From: Neckera pumila
Taxonomy: Eukaryota > Streptophyta > Bryopsida > Hypnales > Neckeraceae
Length of the DNA: 64,000 nt
Assembly: GCA_963969595.1 (NCBI GenBank)
Contig: OZ018408.1
Coordinates: 50,097,022 to 50,161,021 of the forward strand
Reading direction: 5' to 3'
A program made the position numbers and the translations under genes. Position 1 is the stretch's first letter; each line of letters starts with the position of its first letter. Below are positions 21,693 through 53,604 of this stretch, in pieces. The notes beneath the pieces were generated by a model. That model ran no database searches and was not told where the DNA came from. It saw only the letters and a program-made list of their open reading frames with translations.

Positions 21693-24380
21693 TCAAGACG
21701 AAGGAATTGAAGCCAAACTCTCTTTGATGACATCAATTTGAGCAGCCGGAATCTTGATCATGCATTCCCTAGTATCTTTCTGGATCCTAGATTTCCACGC
21801 TGTTATAAGAGCGTCTGTGTACTGCCAAAGTGGTGGTTTGTTTTCATCAACCTTCCAACGTAGACCTCTTTCGTTGTCCCATCCAGTATAGGAATTCTGA
21901 ACATCCTCATCTCTACTAGTTGGACGGAAATATTGAATGCGAACACAATCCGGTTCTTCAGGGTTACAATTTGGATCAGATAATGTCCTTGCAATCCAGA
22001 CTGGATGACTGTCACCGTCTGCTGGATTAATTGCAATGAAGTAGCCTTCAAAGACATCTCGACCCACCCTAAAAGATGGTTGAGGGCGACCCCGTAAAGG
22101 TCCAACATAGGCGTCATCCTGCCCGAACTCTTCACGGTCTTTGCCATCTTTGTTTAGTTGATCTTCTTGAGTTGCTTCAACTCGAGTTGTCGACCAGAAT
22201 TCGTCCTTCAAAATAGTAGATGCATATACTGGTTCTTGCAATGCTGCCTTCACATCACGCCAGTAGTGCAGCACATGCTCGTAACGCCTCCGACATTCCC
22301 CAGTGGCATCTGCATTGCACAAATTCTCCCAATACTTTATAAATCCAGATACACCTTTCACAATGTCTTCCACACCTCTCATTGCCTTCTGTGTGACTAG
22401 CAAGGGTACTCCACGTGACTACATGCTTCGTCCTTCTGCATCTTCCTTTCACAACTTAATGCCCCTACCATCTTCTCCTAACCAGTCCACATCCGTACAC
22501 AATAATTTGTACTTCATGACTGGACATCCGGTTGAATCTAGATAGAACTTCACTTGTTGTGGTTTTGTGTGTCCAACAAGGATGTCATCACCATCCACCA
22601 ATGAACCTGCAATGAAATCTTTAAAATCAGGCACCTCTTCCACAAGATGAGGGATAGTGGGAATGAACTCTACATCCATGAACGACTTCATAAGCATAGA
22701 AACGGTAGGGAAGTTCTCTTTCTTCAACTACATGCTCCATCTTCCGAAGAGTGCATCAATGTTGTCGTGCGTGTGACCCACAATCATGAAGTTCACATAC
22801 ACTTCTCGGAAGATCTTTTTTGCAACAAGTAGAGACCAAAAACAGAAAACATATCTATTCTTATTGTCCCCAGTGGCACCGTCCATTTGCACATTGAGAA
22901 TGGGTGGCAATGGTGTCGCTAGAATTAAGTTCATCGGCGGTGGAGGAAGAGACGCTTCGCACATCTCTGCACCCTTCAGAACTGCCTTGAACAAATTCGT
23001 TGACCTTGATCCAACAAACAACTGCCGAGAAGAAGACTTTGGTGGAAACTCAAGATCTCGCAACAACTTCGCCATAGAACCAATGGTATAGTTTGAATTG
23101 TGCGGAAAGAGATCCAAACCATAATGCGCATAACGCACATCACCATGATCGTGTGCAATCATGCTAGTGACAGACACGGGAAATTTCACTAGGCCATCCG
23201 TGCCTTTGCTCTTATGAGAAAAGACTGGACAAGCGGTCTTGGAATGATCCATCTTGTCGTGCATGATCGTAAGACATTCGTGCAGAAAAGTGTGCGACCG
23301 GTACCGGTTCGCATAGTACAACTCTCGGTGAGCTCGAGCAACAGTAAGATGTTTGTCCAACTTCCGCGACCACATGAGAGCCGTATTCGACCCAGCAAGA
23401 GCACCCTTCCTGAGCTCTTGTAATTTGTCACAAGTAGCGCACCGAGCAAAATTGTCTCCAGGCTTTTTCACCTCGAACTCCGAGAACTTGGAAGATCTGA
23501 TCTTGCTTAAATTTGAAATTGAAATTTCAAGTAATCCAAAGGCGGCATTGACATCATTGATTTCTTTCATTTTTCCCTTCCATTGAAACGTAGATCTGCG
23601 TTGCTGACTCATCATGATCTTCTGATAGTGGAAGAACGTGGACTCAGGGACCCCTGAAATATGCATCCATGTGCGCATGCACATAGGGATCTTTTCAACT
23701 GCCACCATTTGTCTTCCACGAGAGTCGGGAAGAACTTGTCTGTGGACATCAAGCTTCATGAAGGACCTATGCTTGAAGGTGGAGTTATGGTACATGCGCT
23801 CACGGAAAGCTCAAATCTTCTCCCTTGGAAATGGCTGAACACAATTCTAAACGCAGCAAACTTTGCTAGAGACTGCGTTGATTGACTCCTGGGTGAGCAG
23901 ATATTTGGATTTGAGAGAAGTCACACGAGAGGGATTCCTAAGGATACTTGTATATGGCCTAGCAAATGTCAAAGAAGGCGGATTCAAAAGACTTGCTTGG
24001 AGGCAATTCAATTTATTCCGTGCTTCATGATCATGAAGGCTTGCCCCATGGTATTGGACAAGCTTAATAGGCCAAGCGATCAATGAGTAAATTTGCTCAG
24101 GGGAGATGTCGACTCCTAAATGAGTCCTCAAAATAAATACTGCAACATGAGTGTCGCCGAGAGGACCATTGGCACCGAGAACCAAGCCTGAATTGACACT
24201 ATGACAAGTGCCTTCACCAACAAGTACTCCATCCGCATTGTACAAGGTAACGCATTTCGTATTCCAAAGACTACGCGGAAGACCTTTGCACTTAGGAACG
24301 TCTGCATTCACTTCATCATGAATCTCAATCTCCTTGTCTGACTCGAACATACCATCAAACAAGTTTGATGAAGAAGCCAT
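21693..24380 (-). pseudogene. DUF7869/DDE-transposase-like gene, interrupted by in-frame stops
   Basis: A single minus-strand frame runs from ATG at 24380 to TGA at 21693, about 895 codons, broken by five in-frame stops: TAG 23847, TGA 23811, TAG 22728, TGA 22449, TAG 22419. I see no frameshift. The core has three acidic blocks typical of the DUF7869 family as I recall it: IMHDKMDHSK (about 23250), NVQMDGATGDNKNRY (about 22880) and VGHTHDNIDALFGRWSM (about 22760). DUF7869 proteins are widely scattered in plant and algal genomes and look like DDE-type transposases. A C-terminal block (FEGYFIAINPADGD, then PVWIARTL and RIQYFRP) suggests a small beta-rich domain, perhaps BAH- or Tudor-like (low confidence). 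The start sits just after a splice acceptor-like TGCTGTGTAG, so an upstream 5' exon and intron are likely. Confidence 0.65.
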
Positions 24381-27372: not shown

Positions 27373-27772
27373 CAAATTTTAGTGAACCAAAAATCCATGA
27401 ATCATCAAAGAAGCGCACGTGCATGTTCCCCCCAAAATGAAGAGGTTGGAATTTATCCAAAGCCTAGTTTGAAATCCATGGGCGCACTGAATTCATCTCC
27501 AATTTTTTTTTATTTGCCACGTAACCCAAACGAAAGCATTAAATTGCTGTATTTTAGTGAACCAAAAATCCATGAGTTCTGAAAGAAGTGCACGTGCATG
27601 TTCCCAAAAAAATGAAGAAGTTGGAATTCATCCAAACCCTACCTTTGAATCTATGGGCACATTGAATTCATCTCCCATTTTTTTTTATTTGCCACGTAAC
27701 CCAAACAAAAGCATTAAATTGTTGTATTTTAGTGAACCAAAAATCCATAAATCGTGAAAGAAGTCCACGTGG
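27373..27772. repeat. 175-176-bp satellite, left block
   Basis: Two monomers, with the landmark AAGYGCACGTGCATGTTC at 27411 and 27586 and the next AAGTCCACGTGG at 27761. Each monomer contains CCATGGGC, TTTGCCACGTAACCCAAAC and TTAGTGAACCAAAAATCCAT. The block stops at CCACGTGG (27772), exactly where the 12.9-kb element begins, and resumes at 40638. Confidence 0.9.
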
Positions 27773-28290
27773 CAACGACACTAGCATGTGAGCATGTGAG
27801 CGTGAGCCTGAGAGCGGTGAGCGGGGATTGTGTGAGTCTAGAGCCTGAAAATAAAAAACTTGATGTAATTTTTAAATTTATTTGATTAAAATGTAAAAAG
27901 ATTGATTTTGTTTATTATACTTAGAAAAGATGCCCTATTACCACTAGACCTATGACCGTGGGTTTTATATCTAAAAGCCTGGGAAGTTGGCGTTATTGCA
28001 TGTTTTAGAATTTATATTACATTTATAGAGGCCGTCCAAGGGTGGACTAATTAAGTGAGAGTACATATAATTTAGAGGCAATTTCAAAGATGAGAAGAAG
28101 ATAAATGCAATGAAAATATCATAGGACGTGGAACACTGTGTACATAATAAAATATTCTTTCATTGCAGTAAGGAATACATATTGGAATATAAATATAATA
28201 TTTTGCTACTCAAATTTGGAGATTTTGAAGATAATATATCGGTACTACATATCTACTTTATATCATGCTAATATCTGTCAATTAACTTGG

Positions 28291-31200
28291 TCACTCGTAT
28301 GTCTTGATGATTCCGGCCGTAATAAGCACTTGTTTAACTTCGTCCAAGCTGAGGGTAGGAGCATGGATGAATGGATGTATCTTATGATCCAATTTGCACA
28401 AATAACAAAAGACATAATAAAGATGTTTGCAGTTAACGTACATGCCACGCTTTCCAATGGACATCCATTCATACTTCCATAATGGGGACAAGTACAAGAT
28501 GGGAAATTGCAGAGAGTAATGCTGTAAACCTTCTGGTTAGGTTCAGTCCCAGAAGAAAGCGTAATAATAGCACCAAGTCCAGGATAAGGAAGGAAGTTTA
28601 CATCAGTAATACTTGCAATAACATTCCTTGCACTTTCCCACTGATTGCGATGATTTTCAGTAGGCGCCTTACTACTCCGTCGAACTTGCTTGCCATTTCA
28701 AATGGAAGGGATTCTTTCAGCATGTGCTGGTCGAGGATGAGTCCAGAGCATAGGCTCAAATACCCTAGATGAGGTGAATAGACGTCGAGGTGACATTGGC
28801 ACACTAGATTGCAGGTGAAATCCAGCTTCTTCCAACTCTATGATTTCAGTACGAGTAAGATTGGTACTAGTAAGAACAGGCCAGACATTAGGGATCTCGG
28901 GTCGTGTAAGAACATGAGAACGTTTAGGTCCCATGACACATCGTGCAATTTGATCTGCACAAAACCAGAAATCCTTGGTCTGAACAGCCGTGCCCTTATA
29001 TTCATGCTTTTGTCCTTTGTAAGTAGGAGCAGCAGTAGGTTTACCATGTCTAACAATTAGTAGCTTGCATTTGGCTTGTGTGTACTTCTGAATGGCATGA
29101 CACTGCTTCCTTGACTTGTGTGAAATTCTTGTTATGTGCCACTCCGATGTATTACAATCTGTTTCCACCACACATTGAGTATGGGGCATGACTATATTAA
29201 ATTCCTCACTTTCAGCCCCGATTTGTACACTAGCAACGGCTGATTTAATTTGAACTCGAGGATGGGAAAAGTTCACCTTGTCAGGGCGATGAGAATCACC
29301 TTCAGAACCGATTGGAAGATCCAATTTTCTTTTGCCGGACCCAAATACCTCTTCTCCCTCCAAATGCGGAATTCGGGTGCAGATGTCTTCCGCTCCAGGC
29401 ATCTGACTTAGAGCGTCTGCAATTTTTTTCCCATCTCTAGATGCCATAGCTCTCTTTAGTTTCAAATCTTCTTTAGAGGGGCCCTTCCTAGAAGGGCCTC
29501 CGCAAAAATAAGCCCTATAATTTGTCATTTGCATAAAAGCTCGAACCCAATCATTGCAAGTGGCTACAAACAAATCAGACCCGCGTTTGCCAGAAGCTTG
29601 CATCCATTTATTATGCACTGTTTCTGCAAGGTTGCACGTTGGGATGTCTGCTAGTTCTTCAGTTGTCAGTTTCTGCAAAGATGATGATGAAGTCATTATT
29701 GGATTGGTTTGAAATGTAGAAAAAGATATGAAAAAAAGAATGAAAGTGAAGATCATACCGTTTCCATGAATCCACTCCACTGCCGATATCGAAAGTGCCA
29801 AAAGGCCAGCCAATCCTCGAGTTCACGAATTGCCGGTTCTGATGCAGCTCCGGAGGAATACCACCACTCTCTAATTTCTAGATACATCTTGTCCGCCTCG
29901 GACATTGATGTTGCATCCTTGTATTGCCTGCACAGTCAGATATGCTGGTTCTGGAACTCTTTTGCAATTAACTTCTCTGTATGCTTGTGCATGCTTATTG
30001 CCCAGTGGAATAAGCAAGTCCTTTCACGATCCACCATTGGAAGGGATGGATCCCCCGACCCATATACAATGCGAACTGCATTGAAGTTGGCTTGAGCACT
30101 ATCGCACATGAATCCCTTGAAGGTTGGATCTGACATCCCATTTTGTGCCATGACCTTATTCAGACAACGCCAAAAAATGATCTGACCTTTGGTGCCTTCA
30201 ATCTGCATATCACAGACGGCAATGGTCATGACTTTGCAGTAAGTAGAGTCATAGACGTGACAAGCAATAGTTGTCCATAATTTCACCCTCTTCACATGGT
30301 CAAACATGATGAAGCAATTTCCAAGATCGCCATTTGGTTGCATTCGTCGTACAAGATCAACATCGCTCCCAGGTCCATCCACAAGCATCTTGAACAAATA
30401 GACCTTCTCTTGTCCTTGTCCTGGAAATACACTATCATGGATATATTCCACTTTGGCACGTCCCTTCATGTCAAGAATCCGATCAATCTCACCACCTTCT
30501 TTGTTGTTGTTCCTAAAAGAAGATATCATATTCCGCACATTCGACGAGCTAAGGAGTTGGAACTTATCCATGACATTCTCTAATGCATCGCCATAGAGCA
30601 TCTCCTTTGGTTTGGGTCCATTGTGAATCAGAAATGTATCAAGGAACTCCTTGCTTGTCGCTATGGTAATGGCAAAAGTTTTAGCAGTTGGAGTCCTTGC
30701 CACTTCGTGAGCAATCAATCCGGTGATTGCTTCGAGAGACTCTCTATACTGGCCATTAGCAAATGGATGTGAATGAACACCCAAGTGGATCGTTGCACGT
30801 GACAAATTTGCAGTTCTCTGTACATAATAAATCCGCGAGTTACATAGACTGAGACAAGTAGAAGGTTGTCTACAAACTTTACAAAGCACAGTAGACTCTA
30901 GTAGAGGAATCTGGCCTATGTTGAAAGGATGCTTGGTGGTCCCAATCCACTCAGTTTCGTTACTTTTTGAAGCTCGTGTACGATAGTCACATCTCGGATT
31001 CTCACAAATCAAATGCCCAACACAATGCGACTTTCTGAACTTTAAACCGAGGTCGTTATGGATGTTAGAGGTCATAATGCGACTCCATGCATGACCATCA
31101 TACCGTTTATCTATGCCCTCCATGCCCCTAGATCCACATGTGGATCCACGACATGGCGGTAGCTCAAAAAAAACATCGCCATCAAATCTAGCTGGAAGGA

Positions 31201-31909
31201 ATTGGACGTTCTGATATTCAATGGCATCAAAATCAATTTGGGCAAGTTCATTCCGTGATCCGGGCATAGAAGACAATTTGCGTAGACACTGTAATACAGT
31301 TAGGGAATCACAATGATTGGGAGGAAGAGGAGGACGAGAAAATCCGGACAATGCGGGACTACTAAAGGAAGAACAAAAGGCAGTAGGAACAAATGACTCC
31401 ACAGTAGGTGGCAAAGCAACATTTGAAGAAGAAGGTTGACAGACTTGAATTGGTGTCTCGCCTTCAGAATCACTAGATAACTCTATGACTGGTTCTAGAG
31501 ACTCGCGTTTGACATCATTGACATTGAACATAATTATATTCTCAGACCATCCACTAGCTAGAGATTCCACTTTGACTGGACGTACAAGTGGGAGTTCAAC
31601 ATTGGAATTATCAGGAAGGGGTGTCAGTATTTTAGTTGAAGTTGGCAAAAGCTCAGGCGAGAGACCATAAACTCTGAAGCGCCCTGCAAAAAGAAGCCAA
31701 TAGAACCCTTCTTGATCACTACATTTTGATTGCAAGATTGATTCCTTAACAACGCCATAGTCATCTTGGACTTCTTCCTCTATGACAATAGAAGAAGGGG
31801 AGAACCCAAAGCGGACATGAAGGAGATGGGCGGGCACATGTACAAAACCTTGACTACCTAATGGTAAAACAAATGGGATTTCATGACCTCTTGCAACAAT
31901 AGTAGTCAT
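28291..31909 (-). pseudogene. Mutator-like (MULE) transposase with SWIM zinc finger, decayed
   Basis: ATG at 31909. Exon 1 runs to 29759, an 86-bp GT-AG intron follows (29673-29758), and exon 2 runs to about 28291; the join keeps frame (phase 0). Order of features: variable N-terminus; a cysteine/histidine-rich block around residues 300-380 (CENPRCDYR, CKVCRQPS, then GVHSHPF), like the WRKY-GCM-type fingers of MULEs; the catalytic core (FIMFDHVKRVKLWTTIACHV, then GFMCDSAQANFNAV and CLFHWAISMHKH); and a C-terminal SWIM finger (CTCPHYG, then VNCKHLYYVF). Damage: TGA at 29936, TGA at 28698, and the two halves of the SWIM finger lie in different frames, implying a small indel near 28450. This would be the transposase of the 12.9-kb element. 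Confidence 0.8.
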
Positions 31910-33482
31910 ATTGAAGTGTTACATAAAGTTGCAGGGAAGTTGCAGCATTAGGAAGCAAGCAATGATGTTTACAAATGCAAGGGGTGTGAATATAAAGAAG
32001 AATAAAAGCTTCTACGGTTGTTTGAAATGAACGGACATATATCAAAGATGCCATATAATTTGAAATTGAATTGATGATTTCAATGCTTGTTATTGCGTAT
32101 CATATCAAGATTTGCTCTAGAAGAAGATATATCAACATTTGAAATGAAGTTGGGTAAGGCGGCGTACTGCGTAGTATCAATTAGTAAATCAGAAATAATA
32201 AATGAATTATAATACTGACAATGTATCATTTTCTGTTAGACAATGTTAGTAGAATTAGAGCTGGCACTGATAGGAGACGATAGATCAAAATGCCTTATAT
32301 TGCATGATCCCTGACATACTTGCAATGATAATTGCATATCTTTAGATAGGTAAAGGTTTTTTTCATTGATGATAATATGAATAACAGACATATGAAGCCG
32401 TCACTTACTTATAAAATTGAATTCCAATTTTGTGGAGAATAGCTGTTGAAGTTCCTTAGAATATAAAAGGTTGCAGAGTGGAATAAAGCAGTATGTAGAA
32501 ACGCATGTTGCAAGAAGTGGGTGATGTAGTATGGAGGATTGGAGGATGCTGATATTGTAAGGCCCTACTAGTTTATTATTTCAGATGCAAGGATACTTGT
32601 TTTTTCCATTGTTAGCGTTGGACACTCCAGTTCAAGGTAGGAAGAAGAAGAGGAAGAAAAGTATTTTTTGTTATTCAAGTAGAAGGCAATTGTTAAGGGC
32701 TAGAATGACTAGACGGGTGCCTCTAATTAGTGTTGTTGATCTGTCTGGCACAACGAGGAATTTGACGTATGAAGGTACTGTTTCATGTGAAGCAATTGGA
32801 GAAGATAACGTGGAAGTTGAACCCGTCTCTTGCGAAGCTCAACCAGATATTGCTTCAAGCTGTAGTGATTGGGATCAAGATATTAACGGAGAAGAGGAGG
32901 AAGAATAACAACAACAAATAGCCCCAATAGTAGAATTGGAGCAGGAGGTAGGAAGCACAAACACAATGGTAAGGATATCATTATCCCAAGTGATATTGAG
33001 TTTGAATATATGTGAAATTTTTTCTTAGAGGCAGATTTTGCAACTTTGCATCATTTCATGCGCGTCGAAAGCCCGATTCCAACGGTATATAGCATGTAAA
33101 AAACGGACAAATATTGAGTATCTTATGCCCTAAAAACTAATTCAGCATCTTAGAATCTTCCCTGAAATGTTCAGTTTCTGATGATTTTTAGGCAAAATCC
33201 AGCACTTTTATTTTTAGCAATTTTTGCTGATTTTTGTAAATTCGCTCAAGTGTCCTAAAATTCTGAAAAAAATTGGAGTGAATTTGACGTGTATAATCTA
33301 TGGGTATAAAATTTTTTGGCTTGAAATCTTAAAAACTAAAGAAGTTATTTAGAAGATTCCCTTGAGCTATATCTACCAATCTCTTCCTTGGGTTTTTTTT
33401 TTTTTTTTTTTGGAGACCAGTTTCACCCTAACTCTTGTGTTGTCTTTGAACGTCGTATTTGAAGGCGCCGAGGCAACAATCA
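31910..33482. other. Divergent intergenic region of the 12.9-kb element
   Basis: This lies between the two divergent genes and should hold both promoters. One frame at 32585-32908 (107 codons; basic KKKRKK near the start, ending GEEEEE) could be an upstream exon of the plus-strand gene or a small separate protein; a donor-like ATGGTAAGG follows at about 32967. I recognise no domain in it. The remainder is AT-rich with no other long frame. Confidence 0.35.
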
Positions 33483-36400
33483 ATGAGGGAGGGACAAGAA
33501 GCGATCACCATAGAAGAGGCGGAGGTTGCGGTGGAGGTTGCAGCGGAATCTGTGCGGCAAGATGGACAAGGAAGAAATCACGAGACAAGTGCAAGCATTG
33601 AAGGAAATCTAGGTATGCGGCTTTTTTCTTGGCCTTCCTAGACCCCAGCCGTTAACGGCTGTGCTTTTTTGGGTTCCGATTTAGAATAGTGTATGCTAGG
33701 ATTCTGTCCAATGGCACAGTTTCTTTCACCTTCTCACACCCCAGCCATTAATGGCAACCATTTTCGGGAGTCAAACTTTCCTATTCTGCGCATTAGAAAT
33801 TAGGTCGCACATAGTAATTTTTCACCTTCTCACACCCCAACTGTTAACGGCAGCCCTTTTCGAGATGTAGAATTTCTTCCACCGCGGTTCAGATTTCAGA
33901 TTCATTGCTGAAATGTTTTAGCATCCTACACCCCAGCCGTTAACGGCAGCCCTTTTCGGGACGTAGAATTTCTTCCACCGCGGTTCACATTTCAGATTCA
34001 TTGATGAAATATTTTAGCATCCTAAACCCCAGCCGTTAACGGCACCCTTGTCGTACACGTAATCTAGGCGTAAGTATCCTTAACACAAAAAATGTACCAA
34101 GATAACACAAAATATCGTCCCAGGGAATTTCCGGATTTTTATGTAGTATATTCTAGATATCCGATTTTTCTATCTTTCTTTCTTCTCACCTACTTACTCT
34201 TTTTCCGGATCCTTTTACAATCCGGACCATCAACTATCCGGAATCCGGTTTACGTATCTTAACCCGGTTTTCAATACCTCTGTTTTACCTTCAGAGGGTC
34301 CACTAGTTGATCTTTTAAGGGGGTAGAGACTTCACCACCTTTGTTCTACTACAATTCTAACAAACATAAATAAAAACACCCAAGTACTCAAAAGATTGCA
34401 GCAAGACGAGAAGATCCGGATCCTCACAGCTTCTGGATGGTAACTCCGGACAACAGGTCACTCAGGAACACTTCACTCTCCCTTACTACAACAACAGATC
34501 TCAGAGTCAAGAATAAGCCTGGAGGTGTGATCTTTCTAGAAGTTAGATGGATTTCTAAAGTTGGCAGATCTTCCGGACAGGTGGGGACTTCCTCGGGCGG
34601 GCGCTTACCTCCGCACGGCTTGACAACCGGACTCGCTTCCCCGCTACTCTCAGATCGGGACTACTCTTGTAGTAATTTAAAGACACAATACGCAGCTCCT
34701 AAGTCAACAATCCAACAACATTACAATAGCACACTACCGACTTAGACCGTATTCTCCTAAATCCGGATTCCTCCTCACCCATCCTTTCCTTCCAACACTC
34801 AGACCACTGGTCAACGCAATCCGGATACACTGATAGAATGAAAATGCATACCCGAGGGCTTAGATTTCGAAAAGGGAATGAAATACAATTGAATATCAAT
34901 TAGGAGGAAATGAGAGGCAACTAACTTGCCCACCCTTAAAAACCCAAAACAAAAACAAAGTCAACACCCTAAAAGCAAAAAAAGGCTCCCCGGGAATCCG
35001 GGCAGCCAATCAGAGAACCATCCGGAACACTCGGAAAGTCCAGGCCTCAGCTATCCCTAAAAATCCGGATTTTCTAGAAATTCGGAATTCCTAGAAATCC
35101 GGAATCGGGGCCCCACGCATGGAAAACCCATTTCGGATTCAAATTCAAATCCTAATTAAAAACAACCTATTGTAACTAACTACTTCGCCTTTCGCGCCTT
35201 CTTCGCACTGCTCCCGCCTTGGCGAAGGTTGCTGCATGTTGGTGAAGTCTTTTGAATGGGTACTGATTAGATTAGTCAGGGCTCCCATCCGATCAACTAG
35301 AAACTTTTCCGGACTCCGAACTTGTCTTCAACAAGGTTCCCTTCATTTGGAACTCTCCCAGTTGCCAAATCCGGATTCCATCCGGATTCTATCCGGATTC
35401 CACACCAATCCGGATTCCATACCAATGAAGGATCCGGATTCTGAATCCTTCTTCCATGTGATGGAATAACACTGGTAACAATTTTGAGTAATTTGGAAAT
35501 TACTATTCTATAGTTTTCTATAACTGAACTGGATTCTCTATGTTTTACCACAACAATTGAAAACTTTGACTCTATTTAAATCCTATTCTAATCTATTTCT
35601 ACAATTTTGAGTTTGCGTATTCTGACAAGCCCTTTTGGGGATGTAGAATTTCTTCCACCGCGGTTCAAATTTCAGATTCATTGCTGAAATGTTTTAGCAT
35701 CCTACACCTCAGCCGTTAACGGCAGCCTCTTCTAGAACATAAATTTGTTTGCTTTGTATATTACGATTTCCTTCAATGCTAAATTTTTGGAGCCTTTCTA
35801 AGCTGCAACAGTTAACAATTGTTATGTCAAATTACATATTAATCTTTTTTTTGATGTCATTACAGAGATCATGACACAAAGAGATCCAGATGCACCGGGA
35901 TTAGATGTCGTACACCAGCCTCTTTCTAAGGATCAATTGGAGTTACAGTTGCATGACTTTTTGAAGAAAGAGACTGTCAACACATCTTCTCTTCTTGAGC
36001 GGTTGAGGTATCAACCAAAGGCAAAATCAAAAATCAACGTTCCTTTGTGTCGTATGATTTCTTTGCCAGTTGTGAGGCCCTTTTTGAAGAATGACGTTAT
36101 GAACCTTGCTGCACATTTTGTTACTTGCGGTTACATGGAAGGAAATGGAGTTTTTTATGTGGCCTTGGAGGACAATGAAGGAAAGACAGTAGATGACACG
36201 GATGATATTGTTAAATCCTGGAGTGCCAATTGGGTGAAGGCTAATGCTACATTTGAGAAAGAATTGAAGAATGATGAAGATCTCAAAGTTTTTGCGGGCA
36301 AGATGTTTATGGGATGGGATGGCAACCATCGTCTGCAAGCATGGCTGCCTATTATCAACCGCGATCATGCAGATGACTTCATCTGGCATTACGCGGTTGA

Positions 36401-39400
36401 AAATATTATTGTGGAGGTTAAGGGAGATATTGCAATTATGTTGGCAGCATTACATAAAGTGAATTGATAATCTCTTTTCTTTATTTATCAAAGTTTGGTT
36501 CATTTCACTTCTTAGTCACTAAAGGTTGTTTGGTTTGAAACATTGGAATTGTTGCTATTCTATATTTTTTTTCTTTCATGTTCACTTCACAAATTTTAAC
36601 ACAATACATCTTGTTTGTCCAGGAGAAACCAAAAATCCCATGTTTCTATAAATCTTGTTCACAAACTTTATCGCATTCAGAGTATTGCTGGCCAACCACT
36701 CTCATATTTTGAAAAACTTGTCTCCAAAGATGATCTTGTTGCAGCTGAAGCAAAGCAGAAGTCAAAACAAAGAACATGGTTCACTCTCACTCTTGAGGCT
36801 CTAAATGGAGTCTTATACCAGGTAAATTTTTAAATTTTTATTGGCCACTTCATATTTTGTTTTCAATTTTTATGTCTTCTTTTTGTTCTTATTGTTAATT
36901 TGAATTAATATCTTATGAATCATTGTATATATCATTTGTCATCGTGTGTCATTTTTCTTATTCTTATACATCAATTATCTTATACAGCAAGAGTTGGGAG
37001 AGTCTGCTGCAGCTGCTCAAAGGAAATTTTATGAGAAATATCCCAATCCAGCAGATTGGACTCCATCTGCAGTTTATGAATGGGTCTCTAAAGCTGTTGA
37101 CAAGGTCAAGATAGCTTCTCATTTTGAATTGAGGAAACAACTTCCTATTGCAGATCCAAAACACACGACTGCCTTCTTAGAGCAAGTGAAGTTTCACTAT
37201 GAAACTCACGATAAAAGTCCAGAGATGACTCAAGAGAAACTTTGGATGCTAGCAACTTCAACAATGGACACTTCTATGAAGATCAAGTGGTTAGAGAGGT
37301 GGAACAAATCTCCTTCTCTTTGCGAAGCACTCAAATTTTCTAAGTCAAAATTCAATGATATTGACTCCCCGAGTGGCTTCATAAAGCTACATGGTGGGCT
37401 CAGGTGAGTACTAGTCTTATTTTTTTTTTCATATTCTTCCTTTGAACCTTTTTGTTCAATCATAACATTCTTCTAATCTAAATTTTGTATGTCACAGTTG
37501 GCTGTTGAAACAGAAAAGCTATTTGATGCCACAGTAGCTGATCTGGGAGTGTCTATTAACTATCTTCTAGATGGTATGGATCCTTTGCCCACAATCTTTG
37601 ATTATGTGAAGTCAATGCGCATATTGTTGTGGGATGCTACATTTTTCCGTGAATTTGATGTGGATAAGGGGATCCACAAGAACCATAAGATTGATAAACA
37701 ACTGAACTTCAAACCAGCTATGCAAAGGGTGCTTTACAGATACTTCAAGTATGTCCTTTTTCCTGCTAAAGCCATTTCCAAATGTCCTGCTTTCTTTGCA
37801 AATTACTTGGACAAAAAAAGTGAAGATTGCATGTTCACAGAGGGGATTATGAGTTCTTGGGATCCCTTGCATTGGGAAAGGTGTGGGTGGTATTTGGATT
37901 GTCCTCTCAAAAGACCTCCCACTTTTGACATTGTCTTTCGAGATTCCATTGAACTTGCACTCAAAGGTACAATCGTAGTTACAACGGTGGATAAGGATGC
38001 AACCAAGAAGACAAGGAAGACAAAGGCTAAGCCAAAGAAAGAAATAGTTCATCTTGATGATTCCAATGAAGATGTGCCAGTTGAAGATAGTCTCAAGGAC
38101 CTTCTTGTTACTGGACCTTCTTCTTCAAATGTTGAGGCTACCCTCCCCCCTTCAAAGCGACAAAAGACTATTTCTACTCCTGAGGTTTTGGTGCCAACTT
38201 CTTCTCCTATCTTTGAGCTTCCTCCCCAACTTAAAGGTATGATGGGTACTTTGGCTCCTTTGTCGTCCCCTCGTACATCCTTGGAGTTGATCTTAAATGA
38301 TTCTTTTGTTAGAATTATCGAGGAGAAAAAGAAGACTGGTACATTTGGCGCGCCATATGACGACATTGTATCTTTTCTATCAAAGGTGAGTTCATTCTTT
38401 TTATTGGTTTTCTTTGCTATTTCATATTTCATTGTTATGAAATCTTACATGTTCTACAAAATCCATCTCTTCGAATTCATAATGTTTTATGCCTTTAACA
38501 TCTTCAATTATGAACTAACATTCTATAAACTTGTCTTTGTAGGTTGGTGAAGGAAGGGAGTTCTTTTTTTATGGCAAAGTTCAAAAGAAATTTGCAGTGG
38601 ATCTCACCATTGCGGATTATCCAGATGGTTTTCCAGTTCCAGGGGTTTCAAATCCACCATCTCAAATTCTCCATTGGAATGCCAACATTCCAGGTTTTCT
38701 CCAAATAATGATGGCATTTTGTCTCACCTATCTTCATGATGATGGAGCATTCCTTCTATTTTATCCTGATAGTTTGACGGTGAAGAAAAAAGTGACAGGA
38801 TTCTTCAAAAACTACAAGTTGAAGGTCAAGGATGAGTGCACTATTATTAACTGTTTGCACTTGGCTAATCCTATGAATCTAACTAAAAAAGTAGGTTGCA
38901 ATTTCAAACTTTCATTTTTGTCATTGATTCATTTTTTATTGTATTTCCTTTGATTTTATGCACACTTTCTAATTTCATTTGATTTTCATTCCAGACTATG
39001 AAGTTCAAGGCTTTATTGTTGGTTCGATCATTTGCTTCTCCCATTACAAGGCAGCCTCGGGAATTTGTGATTACTAATGATCCTTCTATTCCCGAAGTTG
39101 ATTTAGCCACAAACGACGTCCTCTTCAATTCTGTTACTATAGCAAGTCAATTATGTAGAAAGGAAGATGGTAAGCCATGGAGGGGTGCAAAAGAAAAGTC
39201 TGAGGTTCTAATGAAGCTTTTTGTTCATGGCTTGAGTCCTGTAGGTGGCATTGTAGCAGACATGACTGCCTCTACAGGTATTGTAATCTACAATATTGAC
39301 TTACTTCTTTCTCTATTTTTTGTTTGATTTTTAATTCTATTCTTCAATTTTGATGTTTCATAATTCATATATTGTGTTTCACTCAGGTTCTTCTATTAAA

Positions 39401-39937
39401 GCGGCACATTCTTCTAATTGCTATATCCTTGTACTAGAAAGTGATGTCAAACTCTTTGATGAGATACTGAAGCCTCTAAAAATACCTATAACCATCTCCA
39501 AAAATCTAGATTCTACTACCACACGTGATGGTATGGACATTGATGATGACTCTCCAATTGAAGACGTTGCACTACTTGACTTATGTAAGTAAGTTCTTAT
39601 ATTATTCTACTTATATTATTTCTTTTCAACAACTTCAATTATAAATCCTATACCTTGTATTTTAATTTGTTACTCCATTTTTGATATATGGTTTATTGTT
39701 TGCAGTTGGATGACTCCATTGCCAAGGCAAACCTTGCCTTTTTATCAGCACCCTGGATTTTTTAGAAGTCCCTCTCTTAGTCCTCGTGGCCTCCCTGTTT
39801 ATGCTGAAGATTTAGCATTAGCTTATGTTAATGATTCATCTTATTCATCTTCAATTTCTCAATCTCCTCGTAGATCTTATGATCCTAGAGTATGTTCTTA
39901 TTTTGAACTCAGTGCATCTGAGTCAGACGAAATCTAA
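33483..39937 (+). CDS. ParB/Srx-like plus permuted DNA methyltransferase-like protein (spliced gene)
   Basis: Exons as I read them: 33483-33612; 35866 to about 36440-36458; 36623-36821; 36988 to about 37403; 37498 (or 37514)-38385; 38543-38890; 38995-39277; 39387-39588; 39706-39937. Joins 1-2, 3-4 and 5 through 9 keep frame with GT-AG sites; joins 2-3 and 4-5 are unsettled. Exon 2 has WDGNHRLQAW (about 36320), like the DG(N/H)HR box of ParB/sulfiredoxin-fold domains. The middle is helical and lysine-rich (TKKTRKTKAKPKK near 38000). Exons 6-8 read like a beta-class (permuted) N4/N6 DNA methyltransferase: AVDLTIADYPDGF where the catalytic (D/S)PPY motif IV belongs, FLLFYPDS, then PWRGAKEKSEVLMKLFV, GGIVADMTASTGSS (motif I position) and VLESD. 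Motif IV is degenerate, so activity is doubtful. There is no in-frame stop in exons 5-9. It is divergent from the transposase, so probably its accessory gene. Homology is by eye. Confidence 0.6.
33646..35816. repeat. 96-bp tandem repeat with GTTAAC-centred palindromes, in intron 1
   Basis: Cores start at 33651, 33747, 33843, 33939 and 34035, exactly 96 bp apart, then at 35715 and 35811 after an inserted element of 1580 bp. The best palindrome is CAGCCGTTAACGGCTG (33646-33661). The copy at 33744-33755 is GCCATTAATGGC, in which both halves changed together and symmetry was kept. Copies at 33936-33947, 34032-34043 and 35712-35723 are GCCGTTAACGGC. The rest of the unit includes GTAGAATTTCTTCCACCGCG. 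All lie within intron 1 (33613-35865) of the ParB/methyltransferase-like gene. Confidence 0.9.
34050..35629. mobile_element. 1.58-kb insertion in the 96-bp array, related to the element at 53.6 kb
   Basis: It splits a 96-bp repeat unit. CCCTT lies on both sides (34045-34049 and 35630-35634), a 5-bp target duplication, and removing 1580+5 bp restores the 96-bp spacing to within one base. It begins GTCGTACACGTAATCTAGGC and ends TTCTGACAAG. The first ~950 bp match 53605-54560 in the same orientation. It is rich in TCCGGA and carries no ORF of note. It may be a solo LTR or an internally deleted copy of that family; the TG...CA-like ends leave both open. Confidence 0.7.
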
Positions 39938-40637
39938 GTTTATTTTCATAATTTGATATTTTATTCCTATTGTCTTGTTTTTCAAATTGAATTTGCCTGT
40001 ACATGATGTAGCAATTTGCAATTTGAACATAGCAATGATGTAGCAGTGTAGCAATTCGAATCCCATTTGCTGCCCTAAAACTTCACCTTGTGCCTAAATT
40101 GCCAATACTTTATGAGCCTTGATTTATACTCCACCACTAAACTATATGAAATTTTAGGAAGTTGAATTTAACTTGGAATTCAATGAAACTACTACCATTA
40201 GATTAATTATGTAATCAATTAAAAATAGTTCCCCCCAAAAGGGCATCAACTAGAAAAATAGTGGTTTAGGTCATTTGAGATTTACACATTCATTTGGTAT
40301 ATAAAATATGACTACTATGTTTATTTTATGTATTACATGTTCAAGATATTTTTAAAATTTTAAAGCATAGTTATAAAAATAAAATAAAATAGGTGGACCA
40401 TTTTCATTCTTTAAATTTACATGAAGGCCTATAGATCAATTTTTGGTACAAAATCACATAGTGGCATATTCATTTGTTATTCATTTGGATTGTAGATCCT
40501 TTCATATAATTCCACTGTCATAGGTCTTTAACAAATTTACAAATCCTAAATTTCCAAAAAAAAATTGAAGGCTCACAGGCTCATAGGCTCACACGCTCAC
40601 AGGCTCATGCTCATAGGCTCACATACTAGCATCCCCG
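39938..40637. other. 3' region of the gene and right end of the 12.9-kb element
   Basis: AT-rich untranslated or non-coding DNA, then from about 40570 a minisatellite of GCTCA(C/T)AGG units, which is the inverted counterpart of the GTGAGC repeats at the left end. It ends CACATACTAGCATCCCCGG next to the target duplication. No ORF. Confidence 0.6.
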
Positions 40638-41400
40638 GTCCACATGGATGTTCAAAAGAAAAATGAAGAAGTTGGAATTCATCCAAACCTTACCTTCAAA
40701 TCCATGGGCGCATTGAATTCATCTCCCATTTTTATTTATTTGGCCCGTAACTCAAACAAAAGCATTAAATTGTTGTATTTTAGTGAACCAAAAATCATGA
40801 ATCGAGAAAGAAGTCCACGTCGATGTTTAAAAGAAAAATGAAGAAGTTGGAATTCATCCAAACCCTACCTTCAAATCCATGGGCGCATTGAATTCATCTC
40901 CCATTTTTTTTTTTTTTCCACGTAACCCAAACAAAAGCATTAAATTGCTGTATTTTAGTGAACCAAAAATCCATGAATCGTGAAAGAAGTCCACGTGGAT
41001 GTTCAAAAGAAAAATGAAGAAGTTGGAATTCATACAAACCCTACCTTCAAATCCATGGGCGCATTAAATTCATCTCCCATTTTTTTTTATTTGCCACGTA
41101 ACCCAAACGAAAGCATTAAATTGTTGTATTTTAGTGAACCAAAAATCCATGAGTCCTGAAAGAAGTGCACGTGCATGTTCCCAAAAAAATGAAGAAGTTG
41201 GAATTCATCCAAACCCTACCTTCAAATCCATGGGCACATTGAATTCATCTCCCATTTTTTTTTATTTGCCACGTAACCCAAACGAAAGCATTAAATTGTT
41301 GTATATTAATGAACCAAAAATCCATGAATCATAAATGAAGTCCACGTGGATGTTTAAAAAAATAATGTAGAAGATGGAATTCATCCAAACCTTGGTTTCA
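40638..41400. repeat. 175-176-bp satellite, right block
   Basis: Four monomers with AAGTCCACGT-type landmarks at 40636 (truncated by the element), 40811, 40987, 41163 and 41338. The sequence matches the left block at 27.4-27.8 kb in the same orientation, so the two blocks were one array before the 12.9-kb insertion. Each monomer carries one or two CACGTG or CACGTA words. Confidence 0.9.
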
Positions 41401-46885: not shown

Positions 46886-48480
46886 ACGACATGCTCGTCT
46901 TACTCTGCCGCACAAATCCTAAAGCATATTGCACCCCTGAAGAGAATACAAAGTCATGCTCGATCAGCTCTTCAAAGAAAGCATCAATAGACTAAATCAA
47001 GACAATGTACTATTTGCAGAATGGAGAACCAAATGGAAGCCCTCGAAATGTACTTCAAGAAATGCGAAGTGCAAATCGCAGAGGAGGATGCCGGAGGGGA
47101 CGACTCTCTTATTGAAGGGGTCTATTGGGAATTCAAGGATCCAGATAGAGTGGAGGCCTGGGGTTTTATCATGCTACCATTCACCAATCAATTCTGCTTT
47201 TCGTATAGATTTAAGAACGCCCAAATCTTTTTACAGCTTTTGTTCGATGAGAGAGTGAAAGACGTGGAAGCAGATACCCATCCCACCATAAAAATCAAAT
47301 GTGTTACAACAATTCCTGGAGTCCCAAAGAATGACCAATACCACTTCACAATCTGCCTAGACTCAGTGCTCATTCCGTTTCACATGACCCCTTTGCTAAG
47401 CAGCCTTGAAACAACGCCCTTCAGCATGGAAATCAAGGAGCTTGAGAGAAAATTAGACAATAACGAGTGGTTGAATGCAAACGGGACGCCGCTGGCCTGG
47501 AGGCGCCTCTGCAGTAAAATACGAGTATTGTTCGGAGACTTCAATACTCTAAAGGGGAAGATTGAACATCAGAGCATGCAGAACCGACCCCGCTCTGTGT
47601 CAATGGACCTTCAGAAGCAGGGCACAAGCCAGAGCGCATGGCAGACCGTGGCTAAGGAGACGGGAGGAATCCGCGGACAAAAAACTCAGGAGCAACCCCC
47701 CTAGAAAACACCTCCAAAGAAGGGGAAGAAAGTTGCTGCCACCACGTCCAGAGCTGTAGCACCGCCAAGGGCGTCAGAGCAATCTGAAATCGCAGAGGGC
47801 AGTTACGTGGACGAGATGGAGAACATCCCACACTCGCAGGCGACTGAGAAGAAGCCCGACTATGAGCATATTAGCAAAGTTTACCAGAAGTTTTGGGCGA
47901 CATGTGAGGATGCCTACATCCTCGCAGTTGATGAGAAGAAGGAGATAGACATCTCGCAGCTCATTATGCCCCCCGCGACATACAATATTCGTTCCAGGCA
48001 GGACGACATCGTCGACGGCATGGTGAAGTACCTCTTGAATATCCCAGACAAGAGCACCAAACAAACGTTGTGCGTCATGCCAGTAGGGCACACGACTAAA
48101 CCTAAGAAGTGGGAGGACATCGAGGGAGGGCAGTTCTACATCATCAACAGTCAGCACAGTGTTTTGGCCAGCAATTTCATGTTCGACGACGCCAACAACG
48201 TGAATAAGGAAGAGAGGGAGCATTTTTGAAAATGGAATTGCTTCCTCGTGTGGTCAAACAATGCGGAGAAGCTGCGAAGCATTTCGGCATATTATAACCG
48301 CACAAACCACTTCGTAGCAGTTCAGCCTTCCTGGGCAACAAATATACTGGGAGCGCGATCGGTATGGGAGGACATGGGCAGGCCAAGGAATCCAACTCAG
48401 GCGCACTCAGTGAGAACCGTGTCGATAACAAGACGGACGGTAGAGAATCAGCGCAACAAAGACAAGTTTCAGGTATGCAA

Positions 48481-48501
48481 TTCAGCACGAGTCAAGCTGA
48501 A
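48481..48501. repeat. Palindrome in intron 1 of the fusion gene
   Basis: TTCAGC and GCTGAA flank ACGAGTCAA, eight bases after the splice donor at 48473. It is the common motif read in reverse orientation, with worn inner arms. The intron (48473-48655) is 183 bp. Confidence 0.7.
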
Positions 48502-49954
48502 CTGTTGGACTGGTCCTTTAATCCATGCCATGATGTTCTCTGTATGTGATTATATTTATGATTCAGCTATCATATGCTTGTCACAAGAATTTGAAAAGGC
48601 TATATACGTTCGCTTCTCCATGATTGATGTGAACAAGAATCTGAAGATTGCCTAGACGAGTAAGAAGGAGGAGAAGTTGAAGCTTACAAACGAACTGAAG
48701 CTCATCACTGCCCCCGACGATGTGTACAAGCTATGGAGCGAGGTGATCTCTTCCGCCGCGCATGGCAAGCTCGTGAACCCCAATACGGAGAATAAGTTCA
48801 ACCACAGAAAGGACTGGAACCTCGATAACTGCAGTCTCACCCGCGAGTTCTTCAAGCATTTGGGCAATTTGAGCTACGATGAACTAGCCAAACTTGCCAA
48901 GCACCTGCTTAACCAGACGGGTCTCAAGCGCCCATTCTCTTACCTGAAAGTTACAATTAGAGTGATATCATATGTGCTCGAAAGTTGCTACACGACAAAG
49001 GAATGGGTAGAGAGGTGGAAGCGGAAGCACTTGGTGAAGAAACAGCTGCACCATATAGACCCAGAGCTGGGGTTGCTGAACTCGGGGAACGAGGTAATTT
49101 CCGAAAATTGGAAAGCGTTCAAGAATGAGAAGTTACTCTCTAGAGCCACCATGGACGTCCTCCTTGACAGACCTGGAGAGGCGTACTTCGGGAAGGCAAA
49201 GCAGGTCAAGTCAAAAAACAAGACCTGTGCTGAGCTTTCAGAAGAGGCATATCAGTTCTTCAAGGCCTTCTTCAAGCATAAATCAAAATTTATGAAGGCC
49301 ACCGCAACAGGTCATTACCGGCCCTACGACTTGGTCCGAAACTATCATAACGACTGGCCAGCTAAGTCCTGGACCGAGGAGACCACAAAAAGGCTATTGC
49401 TCGGGGTGATTGACTTCAGGGCGTTGCCCGGGATTGAGAAGAAAGACAGCTCCACTGTCGACAGCCTCTATTTTTGTGGAGATCATGACATCGCTACGCA
49501 AGAAGAAGAATCCAACACTTGAGGAAGTTCCTTCATGGCTTTTTATTTGTGGAGACAAGAAGGAGCTAATGCAGGTTCTGAAACTTGTTGAGTCCAATGA
49601 GGTTCTATCTTCCTACGCCATCGACTTCTCTACCTACTCCGCGGGGAAGAACAATCTCCTTGGAGATCAAGCAGCATCGAAGACTCCAAAGAAGGTGTCG
49701 TTGATGTTTCTTCAGAGCACTCAGAACAGTGTGAAGGTAGAAATTCCTCCCGAATTCCAATGCCCAGAAACAGCAAGGTACATGAAGGCCCGCGCGTACA
49801 GTGAGCTTGAGTACCGGATATACAACACTAAATTGCGGATGGAATTCTACTTGTGGCTCGTCAAGAATTTCTGCAATTCCGGGAAGTGTGTCTTCTCCGG
49901 ATTCGCTGGAGGAAAACTGACGTGCGCTACCATGGTGAATACTGTCGATGCAGA

Positions 49955-50210
49955 TTAGCTCGAGTCGCACTGATATGCTCTGCTCCAGCCAGATCAGTTT
50001 AATGATAACAAATTCACCCATCTCTTGCTGTGGAAATAGTCGTAGGTGATTGTAGTGGTCGGTTTAGCTCGACTCGCGCTGAAGTGTACTAGTACTAATC
50101 AGTAACAAAAGTCCCTCCTGTTGTTTTAGCGTGGGTTGCTCTGAAGTGCGGGATAGCATTAGGTACTTTGAAGCAATCCTCTTGTTGTATTAGCGCGGGT
50201 CGCGCTGATC
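49955..50210. repeat. Four palindromes in intron 2 of the fusion gene
   Basis: Copies at about 49955-49975, 50063-50083 (TTTAGCTCG, ACT, CGCGCTGAA), 50125-50147 and 50189-50209 (TATTAGCGCG, GGT, CGCGCTGAT). They fill most of the 318-bp intron 49935-50252. None extends into an exon. Confidence 0.75.
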
Positions 50211-51327
50211 TGCCATTACTTGCTTCTGATGTCTCCTATCTATCTCCTGCAGATGAGTTGCGTGGACGTCTATGCAAGCGGTCCGTCGGATCATTCCTTC
50301 TGGTGGGAGGAAATCTGCGCAAAGGCCATGACACTCGACAAGGCGGATTTCCTTGACGATGCGTACTCCGCGGATGGAGCTACAGGTCCAAGTTCGACAC
50401 CCTCCTCGTCAAAGAGAAAACTGAGGTCCAGTCAGGATTCTCCGGCTAGCCAGCGCACAAGACAGCCACCTCCCATCGTCGACGATGAAGATGATCTGAC
50501 CGAAGAGGAGGAGGACGAGGAGGAGGAGGATGTTGACCCCATTGAGCTCGGTGGGTTGGATGAGTTCCCAACGCCGACCAGTCGTCCATTAGGAGATGTT
50601 TCGGGGTCCTCCGCAAGCTCTATACTACCGCCGTTGTCCCAGACGCCAAGGACTCCTACTCCGGCTGCCCGACCTCAGAAAAAGAGGAAACGGGACACAA
50701 TCACAAGTGTGGTCAAACAGTTGGCAGATATTCAAAAGCAAAATGCAGAGTCGTTGGCGAATATGGCAAGGCAGAACGAGTTGGCGCAGAAGCAGCAAGA
50801 GCTTGCGTTGACGTAGCTGAGGATAGACATGGAACGGGAAAGGCTATAGAACCAGGAAATGGTGAGGCTAAACCAGGAGTGGATGAAGGAGGAGTCCAAG
50901 CGTAGCAGAGAAATGATGCAGCTCATGATGAACAGAGTGCGAATTGAATCAATGGCAGCTTTGCCACCTACATCTCACTCTCCGCCATTGCTACTGCAAA
51001 GCCAGCCTTTTGGTTTGAACATCAGCAATGCATCGTCAGAGGCAAGGAGAGGGCCGCCTCTTCTTCCCTCCGTGGAACCAGTCCCTAACCCTCTTCCTCC
51101 GGCAGACGACGTCCCCACCCAACCTGCTTCAGCTGCAGTGCAACAGGAAGGACCTCTGCAGCACGGAGTTGTTGGCGTCGTAACGGCATCGACAGAGACA
51201 GTAGAGATCGTGGTTGGACACAACCTGTCTCTGGATGCCTCTGAGGTGGAACCTGAAAGTGATGACCTACCCACCGGAGATCCACCAGCAGGTTGTGCCC
51301 AATAATCATTCGATGTTGTTGTGTAGT

Positions 51328-51348: not shown

Positions 51349-52670
51349 CTATTTGCTAGAGTTTTCCTGCCCATGTCATTGTATATAGAATAGTCTTAGT
51401 ATTTGAACTTGGAAAACGCAATTTTATAATCTGTGAACTCAAATTTATAATATATGGATCTCTCACAGAGAATGTTTTCCTCAATCATGAATCTCAGGCT
51501 CTGTAAATCTCCAAATGTTGCCCGAAGTATGTCAATTTCCTTCCGCTGAATCTGATCCGCTATCGACGGCGGGCACTTCCGACAAGGATGACATTTGGCC
51601 AGGTCCGGTCCAATCCATAGAGGTAGGTGAGGATGTGTCAGTCCCGAATGTGGCACCATCAACTCGTGAGGATGATGATCAACTTTCAAGACGCACTCGG
51701 GCAAAGGTACAATACACTCTTATGTTGTGAGATTTCTGCTGAATTTGCACGTTGCACGTTTGACATTGAATTCAGATGATTTTGCGTGATTGGCATCCGC
51801 ATTCAACCAGTTTCACAATCGTCACTGGCAACGCATTCATCCGTTTGATAGCAGGAATTGAATCCTCCAGTAGATCTTGAGGGATCGTCCGAGGGCGTGC
51901 ATCGGCCATTGAGGTCCGGGGTGGCAAAGAAGTGGATCAATGTTGTCCTGGACCTCAATGGCATTCTTTGTGTCTGCGAGGACTGGAAGTCCAAGGAGTC
52001 CTCGAGAGAATTCAACCGGCAGTCGGAGCCACACTCTGCCACGACTGGTGCAATCGTGGGGCCTAAGGTTGTGTATGTCCGGCCCAATTGCTCCACGTTT
52101 CTGATAGAGTTAGAAAAAATAGCCATCGTTTCAGTGTGGAGCTCCATGAAGAAGTCCTCCACGGAGGACATTTGCGCTTACCTGTTTCGGGAAGGGGAAT
52201 TGCCTTTCCTGGTCCTTGGACAAGACTCCTGTAGAACCATTAAGTGCAGGGATAGAGCCGGCAAGTTAAGCTCATATAAAGAGCCTGGAACTAATAAAGA
52301 GTTGTTTCTTAAGGACTTGGATTTGCTTTTCGGTGGCTCCAAAGGAAGTTTTACACCTGAAAATACTGTCATAGTTGACGACAGCCCTCGCAAGCACATC
52401 ACGAATAAGCCGGAAAACGTTATATTGTCAGACTCCTGGACTAGCCGAGGAAATGGAGACAAGGACACGTACCTCCTTACGGTCCTGCTTCCTTGGTTCC
52501 AGCAATTGCACGTCAACCACAACGTGGGGCTGAAGTCCTTCCGAGAAGATAAGAAATGGAGAATTGGAAGGCAAATGCTCAGCGAGGAAAGGGGCCATCG
52601 TGAGTACGACAAACTCATGGAGGTGGTCCGCGGGTTAGCTAATGTTAGTTAGACCTGCTTATGGAGGTAT

Positions 52671-52910: not shown

Positions 52911-53604
52911 GCCAGCCAACCTTCTTCTTCTAGACCAAGGACTCCTAAAATGTGGACCACTATGAATGTCTGCTAACTTGGTTCTTTATCCTTTCAGGTG
53001 AGGGATAGATCAACGTCTCCAAGATCGGATGCTGCTCTGCCATGCTAGGCTTCGGCAGACTCCGTCCTCAACTATGGGCAGTACGTGATACTTAGTACGG
53101 GGAACTTCTTGTGCTCGGCGCCGACGTTGTCGTGTTGCAAATGCAAACATTATGTAGATTATGTATATATATATATGATTTAGATAGATTTTAATGTTTG
53201 TTGCATCATAAAGAAGTTGAAGTCATTTGAGGTAGCTTCATCTCATTTGATATTCTTTTTCTTTGTGTTTTATTTAGATTATACTATGTCGAACTAGAGG
53301 GGTTTTTTTTCTGAGTCTCAAGAAATTAGAGCTCTAGTTTTTTTTTACCTCTACTAGATATATGTGGATTTTAGTTCTTTATTTCGTAGATAGAGTGGAT
53401 AGAGTGAAGTTAGAGATAAGATAAGGTGAAGATAGAATGGAAAAGTAAAAGATAAAGAGATAGAGTGAAGTTAGAGTGGAGATAGGTGATAAAAAAAGAG
53501 GACTTTTCATCTTCTCTCTTGTTGGGAGTTAAGAGGGGAAACCAATTGTTTTAGGAGAGAGTTTTTTTTTTGTGTTGTTGTGTTATGTTTTGGAGAGGAG
53601 GATT
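52911..53604. other. 3' flank of the fusion gene, non-coding
   Basis: An acceptor-like CCTTTCAG at 52991-52998 may begin a last untranslated exon. After 53150 the sequence is AT-rich, with (TA)n at 53165 and GATAGAGTGAAGTTAGA-type purine repeats at 53390-53490. No gene. Confidence 0.45.

Follow-up and report, generated by a model that had tools for sequence, protein, structure and literature searches.

Why does a DNA transposon in a moss genome carry, besides its transposase, a gene that looks like a fusion of ParB and a DNA methyltransferase? The element lies in a 64,000-nucleotide (nt) stretch of the Neckera pumila genome (assembly GCA_963969595.1, contig OZ018408.1, positions 50,097,022 to 50,161,021, forward strand), which we call the window. 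A first-pass annotation, made from the letters alone, had described a two-gene Mutator-like element (MULE) inserted in a satellite and had suggested that its second protein is an anti-silencing or end-binding factor. The best explanation of our results as a whole is a divergent transposase accompanied by a ParB-type self-recognition factor, probably anti-silencing, a proposition for which we consider the case evenly balanced. The readings and rival explanations weighed below are not mutually exclusive, and neither are the degrees of confidence that we attach to them.

The element is repeated, with precise ends

We compared the window with the host genome, a 339.5-Mb assembly of 18 contigs. The copy counts for the left-end, right-end, and transposase queries are lower bounds, the best candidates having been scored. 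The left-end query (27700-28300) matched 39 other genomic places, with 31 alignments beginning at window positions 27771-27773, and the right-end query (40150-40720) gave 25 other full matches (97-99%), 24 of which end at 40636-40640 and one at 40645. The predicted boundaries of the two-gene element, 27773 and 40637, were therefore sound, most genomic matches ending within three bases of them. With the transposase as query, at least 23 further copies had 96-97% identity and about 12 had 88-91%; an additional copy, split into two pieces, had 95-96%.

Twenty genomic copies were compared in detail with their flanks, making 21 with the window copy. Fourteen of the 20 have a perfect 10-bp target-site duplication and one has a 10-bp duplication with a single mismatch; in three the duplication is 9 bp (by eye), and two have none. 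In the window the two copies of the duplication, GTCCACGTGG and GTCCACATGG, are 10 bp long and differ at one base, which corrects the 9 bp annotated at first. Joining the window flanks with one duplication restores an intact satellite monomer (116/120 bases identical), as expected if the element had split it. This 175-bp satellite, at 27376-27771 and 40638-41391, holds GTCCACGTGG-like sites, and the element was inserted in one of them. The inverted, GTGAGC-rich ends were also confirmed: CAACGACACTAGCATGTGAGC and CGGGGATGCTAGTATGTGAGC form an imperfect inverted repeat of about 21 bp (15/21 identical), and the 100 bp behind them hold 4 and 7 TGAGC repeats, compared with 0.05 per 100 bp and strand in the interior of the element.

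The window copy is old and decayed, and both of its genes are broken. Its two-exon transposase has a clean splice junction and two in-frame TGA codons, at the first of which the relative P0001 has an arginine. Its second gene has lost the exon 1 splice donor and an exon 3 base, both retained in the other 20 copies. An early model of this gene, with three out-of-frame junctions, was discarded when the 20-copy comparison traced them to the lost donor, the 1-bp deletion peculiar to the window copy, and a wrongly chosen GTAAGT. One of the 21 copies has a second gene that is open throughout and has only canonical splice sites, encoding 1,054 amino acids (aa); in another the gene is open with one splice site altered.

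The two genes travel together

In 20/20 fetched copies we found both the transposase and the full set of eight second-gene exons; in one copy parts of exon 3 (83% covered) and of the transposase (98%) are missing. The transposase is on the minus strand and the second gene on the plus strand, which agrees with the divergent arrangement first described. The annotation had held that copies of the transposase never carrying the second gene, or boundaries elsewhere, would speak against a single element, and neither was found.

We then surveyed 67 listed transposase relatives, window copy included and three fragment rows of already listed loci left out, against a second-gene list in which the best 150 of 477 candidate places were scored. 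Among the 24 transposases at 88-100% identity, 23 had a divergent upstream exon 1 within 16 kb; for the 24th, exon 1 was at 23 kb, with the right end beyond it. A divergent exon 1 partner was also found for 9 of 11 transposases at 74-87% identity and for at least 8 of 32 at 48-64% identity, whereas chance alone would give about 0.17 of 32 (an estimate in which the lengths of contigs C4, C10, and C11 were approximate). The value of 8/32 is a floor because only the best 150 of 477 candidates were scored: outside that list is the second gene of locus L050, which is nearly complete, with two stops, and stands beside a transposase 58% identical to that of the window. The ratio of nonsynonymous to synonymous substitution rates (dN/dS) of the second gene was 0.27, and that of its methyltransferase-like part was 0.18, indicating purifying selection. 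The presence of both genes in all 20 copies, the pairing with distant transposases, and the dN/dS value thus bear out the idea of one mobile unit, and support the second gene as a long-term partner of the transposase, not a chance passenger.

The second protein resembles ParB and DNA methyltransferases

The likeness first noted by eye to ParB and to methyltransferases was upheld at both ends of the second protein. The N terminus models as a ParB/sulfiredoxin-like fold, with SspE and free serine kinase ranking below ParB in the fold comparison. The C terminus matches N6/N4 DNA methyltransferases (PHROG_3008; E values of 1.9e-7 and 3.2e-5) in the region of the S-adenosylmethionine (SAM) pocket. 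Matches to PF01555 had E values of 2.7e-4 for L050 and 0.086 for the window family, neither reaching the curated cutoff, and a search of the PDB with alignment A1 gave only two weak matches, to DpnA (E values of 0.05 and 0.06). Thus, the protein looks like a fusion of a ParB-type protein with a domain derived from a methyltransferase.

The canonical motif IV of beta-class N6/N4 DNA methyltransferases is (D/N/S)PP(Y/F/W). In the three families that we compared, this motif departs from the canonical form and reads D[YV]P[DE]: DYPD, DVPE, and DVPE. Motif I reads DMTASTG, DCTAATG, and DWQCGLG.

The read-through second protein of the window gave no match when used as a search query, probably since single database exons fell below the length limit; exon 1 as a four-sequence profile gave 607 matches among 7,997 scored candidates. 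One group of second-gene relatives (C10:7218965, C7:816422, C2:31033923, and others) has an open exon 1 of 192 aa, often stop-free, at about 35% identity, and is probably a younger family. One gene of this group, L051, was read.

Three families have their own palindromes between the genes

The palindrome GCCGTTAACGGC or near forms of it (≤2 mismatches) occurred in 21/21 copies, with 5 to 16 per copy and mostly at 96- to 97-bp spacing. A first test of its conservation was circular, the repeat units having been picked by the palindrome itself, and was redone with units chosen by other columns. Conservation of the palindrome was then 0.95 and 0.94, and that of the remaining unanchored half was 0.74 and 0.73. 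The palindrome and its neighbors are the best-conserved unanchored stretch of the window-family unit, the top-scoring intervals starting ≤4 bases beside the palindrome.

The intergenic region of L050 contains 7 TCTCGGYRCCGAGA-type sites (9 with ≤3 mismatches), and that of L056, which stands beside a transposase 54% identical to that of the window, contains 5 CCTCGGCGCCGAGG-type sites (11 with ≤3 mismatches). In 60 shuffles of each sequence, the maxima were 2, 1, and 2 for 14-mers and 3 for 12-mers. Control pieces of the window, 31 in all but representing the same DNA cut two ways (20 and 11 pieces), gave maxima of 2 for 14-mers and 3 for GC-rich 12-mers. No tandem array covers the L050 and L056 sites, and their spacing is irregular (75-673 bp). 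The largest repeat family in L056 consists of 8 copies of 25 nt centered on the palindrome. The L050 and L056 palindromes are related, because the core CTCGGNNCCGAG is common to both; the window-family palindrome differs. Thus, the window family, L050, and L056 each have their own palindrome set between the two genes.

The second protein may recognize its own family

ParB proteins bind clustered palindromes, and bacterial parS consists of clustered palindromic sites beside the parB gene. The moss element resembles the bacterial ParB-parS system in its ParB-like N-terminal fold and in the clustered palindromes adjoining the gene; it differs in being a eukaryotic transposon and in the fusion to a methyltransferase-like part. 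Because family-specific palindromes adjoin a ParB-like gene, protein and palindromes are candidates for mutual recognition, and the sequences suggest that the second protein reads the palindromes of its own family. Binding of this kind is, in our view, slightly favored. A ParB-type protein that recognized palindromes differing among families would mark its own element, and the methyltransferase-derived part, its canonical catalytic motif lost, would probably serve as a module for binding DNA or a cofactor. Once bound, the protein could counter host silencing by keeping the promoter region of its family open, and it may also autoregulate. The end-binding role proposed in the first-pass annotation is not favored, since the candidate sites sit between the genes and not at the element ends.

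A precedent exists in Arabidopsis, in which VANC proteins clear silent marks from the elements that encode them, binding to noncoding parts of these elements; the bound parts are tandem repeats with family-specific short motifs, often expanding and contracting (PMC10398659). The VANDAL elements and the moss element both have an extra gene besides the transposase and noncoding arrays with a family-specific motif and variable length (PMC10398659). The protein type differs, being ParB/methyltransferase-like here, and VANDALs are described as lacking terminal inverted repeats (PMC6446971) whereas the moss element has short inverted ends. The analogy with VANC targets strengthens the case for anti-silencing, which is plausible, but as an outcome we hold it only tentatively.

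Several results weigh against a self-recognition factor that is a constant partner of the transposase. Among the matches listed, 24 of the 32 distant transposases had no divergent partner (one had a same-strand neighbor), and neither did 2 of the 11 at 74-87% identity; for one of the 24, that beside L050, the DNA itself does contain the gene. In the 12-mer control pieces of the window one A/T-rich word reached 6, five of the L050 sites are inside weakly alike 47-nt stretches, and in a fourth family L057, which is upstream of L051 and of which 2 kb were read, barely surpassed its shuffles, with 3 palindromes versus a maximum of 2. These 47-nt stretches, together with the plain 96-bp tandem repeats that make up the window-family units, would be expected if the palindromes had no role and simply arose through tandem duplication or from repeats prone to form hairpins. 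We consider that quite improbable: the likeness in L056 is centered on the palindrome with no tandem array found there, the L050 and L056 sites are irregularly spaced, and the palindrome and its neighbors are the best-conserved unanchored stretch of the window-family unit, a result that holds with units selected on other columns. It is hardly credible that the element captured its second gene from the host by chance, in the manner of Pack-MULEs. Host fragments are frequent in Mutator-like elements (PMC6446971), but this explanation is already contradicted by the partner gene and its orientation, unchanged in distant families, by purifying selection, and by the 477 candidate second-gene places in the host genome (150 scored).

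Other alternatives accept the second gene as a partner and give it a different function. By binding the palindromes it could set the expression of both genes or assemble the transposase complex, leaving silencing unopposed. Sites between two divergent genes are in the usual place for autoregulation, and other Mutator accessory genes have such proposed roles, as does mudrB for integration (PMC6446971). However, the second protein diverges faster than the transposase (32% versus 58% identity), which an arms race fits better, if not uniquely, and we think a cofactor or autoregulator unlikely. An active N6-adenine or N4-cytosine methyltransferase marking its own element, for protection or activation, has been proposed for the Ectocarpus Sola1 protein (PMC12477816). 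The resemblance of the motif I/SAM-pocket region to N6/N4 methyltransferases and the purifying selection on the methyltransferase part agree with such activity here; the motif IV sequences of all three families, unlike the canonical form, and their motif I readings do not, and make it improbable.

ParB-methyltransferase accessory genes are already known from algal transposons, and the present element is a variant of that kind. Sola1-1_Ec32 of Ectocarpus has an accessory gene encoding a ParB-like and N4/N6 methyltransferase protein of about 1,100 aa (PMC12477816). Compared by description, the algal and moss elements are DNA transposons with both domains, similar protein length, and the gene on the strand opposite the transposase (PMC12477816); the former is a Sola1 transposon, whereas the moss element has 10-bp duplications and Mutator-like anatomy. 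To be set beside Sola1-1_Ec32, as far as its description goes, are the degenerate motif IV and the family-specific palindromes of the moss element. We found no mention of palindrome arrays in the available part of the paper on the algal elements (PMC12477816). In the open-licence literature we found no ParB-methyltransferase gene in a Mutator-like element, and a search of it for ParB-like proteins in transposable elements of plant genomes turned up the Ectocarpus work alone (PMC12477816).

VANC is a sequence-specific example (PMC10398659) that bears on the wider open question of how transposons evade silencing and yet spare the host. If the self-recognition reading is true, the moss protein would add to VANC another type of protein with target sets of its own, a case of convergence, and bacterial partition machinery would have been reused inside eukaryotic mobile DNA. 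The question is directly testable, as there are a candidate protein and candidate targets, with the palindromes of other families as natural negative controls. A wider and rather doubtful extension is that in a large eukaryotic transposon clade a ParB-type clamp with a dead methyltransferase module loads at internal parS-like palindromes and coats its family against DNA methylation; parts of bacterial partition and modification systems would then have been assembled, convergently with VANC, into a means of telling self from non-self.

The element is Mutator-like in anatomy

Members of the Mutator (MULE) superfamily have target-site duplications of 8-11 bp. A table of the Mutator group likewise gives duplications of 8 to 11 bp, with terminal inverted repeats of 14-500 bp, or none in some groups (PMC6446971). 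The 10-bp duplication and terminal inverted repeats of about 21 bp found here are within these ranges. In layout, MuDR/Mutator and the moss element have in common a 9- to 10-bp duplication, inverted ends, and a transposase plus a second gene; the difference is that the transposase here is unmatched by the Pfam MULE model. The window transposase matched 0 Pfam families, PF10551 (MULE) included. Among 15 transposase relatives scanned, neither the MULE family nor the SWIM zinc finger was matched, although by eye the relative P0002 has a CxC..CxH C terminus. PF10551 matched 23 other places in the host genome and 0 of the 67 listed places of the window-type transposase, and these 23 transposase pieces coexist with, and are distinct from, the 67. 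When the window type was compared by hhalign with four of the PF10551-matching pieces, the second D and CxxH were in register, but the match was not significant (E value of 0.31; probability, 0.2%). Alignment A4 of the transposase had 0 matches among solved structures, its structure model was poor (predicted local distance difference test score [pLDDT] of 53.4), and scans of viral contigs found no relative of the transposase or the second gene. A Mutator-like identity thus fits the duplication and the short inverted ends and, as judged by eye in P0002, the CxC..CxH, but no match to the Pfam MULE model was found. Because PF10551 is unmatched and the profile comparison is not significant, we describe the element as Mutator-like in anatomy and refrain from assigning it to the Mutator superfamily.

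Feature coordinates and neighboring genes

TABLE 1 Positions of the element and its parts in the window
Feature	Position	Strand	Remarks
Whole element	27773..40637		12,865 bp, including the later 1.58-kb solo long terminal repeat (LTR)
Target-site duplication, left	27763..27772		10 bp; GTCCACGTGG
Target-site duplication, right	40638..40647		GTCCACATGG
Terminal inverted repeat, left	27773..27793	+	Followed by TGAGC-rich subterminal DNA
Terminal inverted repeat, right	40617..40637	-	Preceded by TGAGC-rich subterminal DNA
Transposase exon 1	29759..31909	-	In-frame TGA at 29936-29938
Transposase exon 2	28278..29672	-	In-frame TGA at 28698-28700; C-terminal zinc-finger part out of frame (by eye, versus P0002)
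GCCGTTAACGGC-type palindromes	33648..34043		Starts 33648, 33744, 33840, 33936, 34032; 96-bp spacing; two with 2 mismatches
Solo LTR	34049..35627		1.58 kb; TG...CA (ends by eye); later insertion into palindrome array
Sixth palindrome	35712..35723		Beyond solo LTR
Second gene exon 1	35871..36466	+	ParB/sulfiredoxin-like domain (DGNHR); splice donor lost in window copy
Second gene exon 2	36623..36821	+	
Second gene exon 3	36988..37403	+	1-bp deletion in window copy only (1/21)
Second gene exon 4	37498..38385	+	
Second gene exon 5	38543..38890	+	Methyltransferase motif IV region; reads DYPDG
Second gene exon 6	38995..39277	+	Methyltransferase motif I/SAM-pocket region begins
Second gene exon 7	39387..39588	+	Remainder of methyltransferase-like region
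Second gene exon 8	39706..39936	+	C-terminal tail

The solo LTR was missing from 20/20 other copies of the element. About 940 bp of it is 90% identical to 53604-54539 of the window, and that repeat is followed at 54.7-56.5 kb by long minus-strand open reading frames that are gag-like by eye.

Among the other genes in the window is a spliced-looking gene at 46941-51305 (plus strand) with a possibly ParB-like stretch, GGQFYIINSQHSVLASNF (by eye); the open reading frame at 47705-48226 within it had no significant Pfam match. A DUF7869 protein is encoded at 22731-23810 (minus strand; Pfam E value of 6.5e-28), and an NLI-interacting-factor-like phosphatase domain at 51852-52649 (plus strand; Pfam E value of 7.3e-17).

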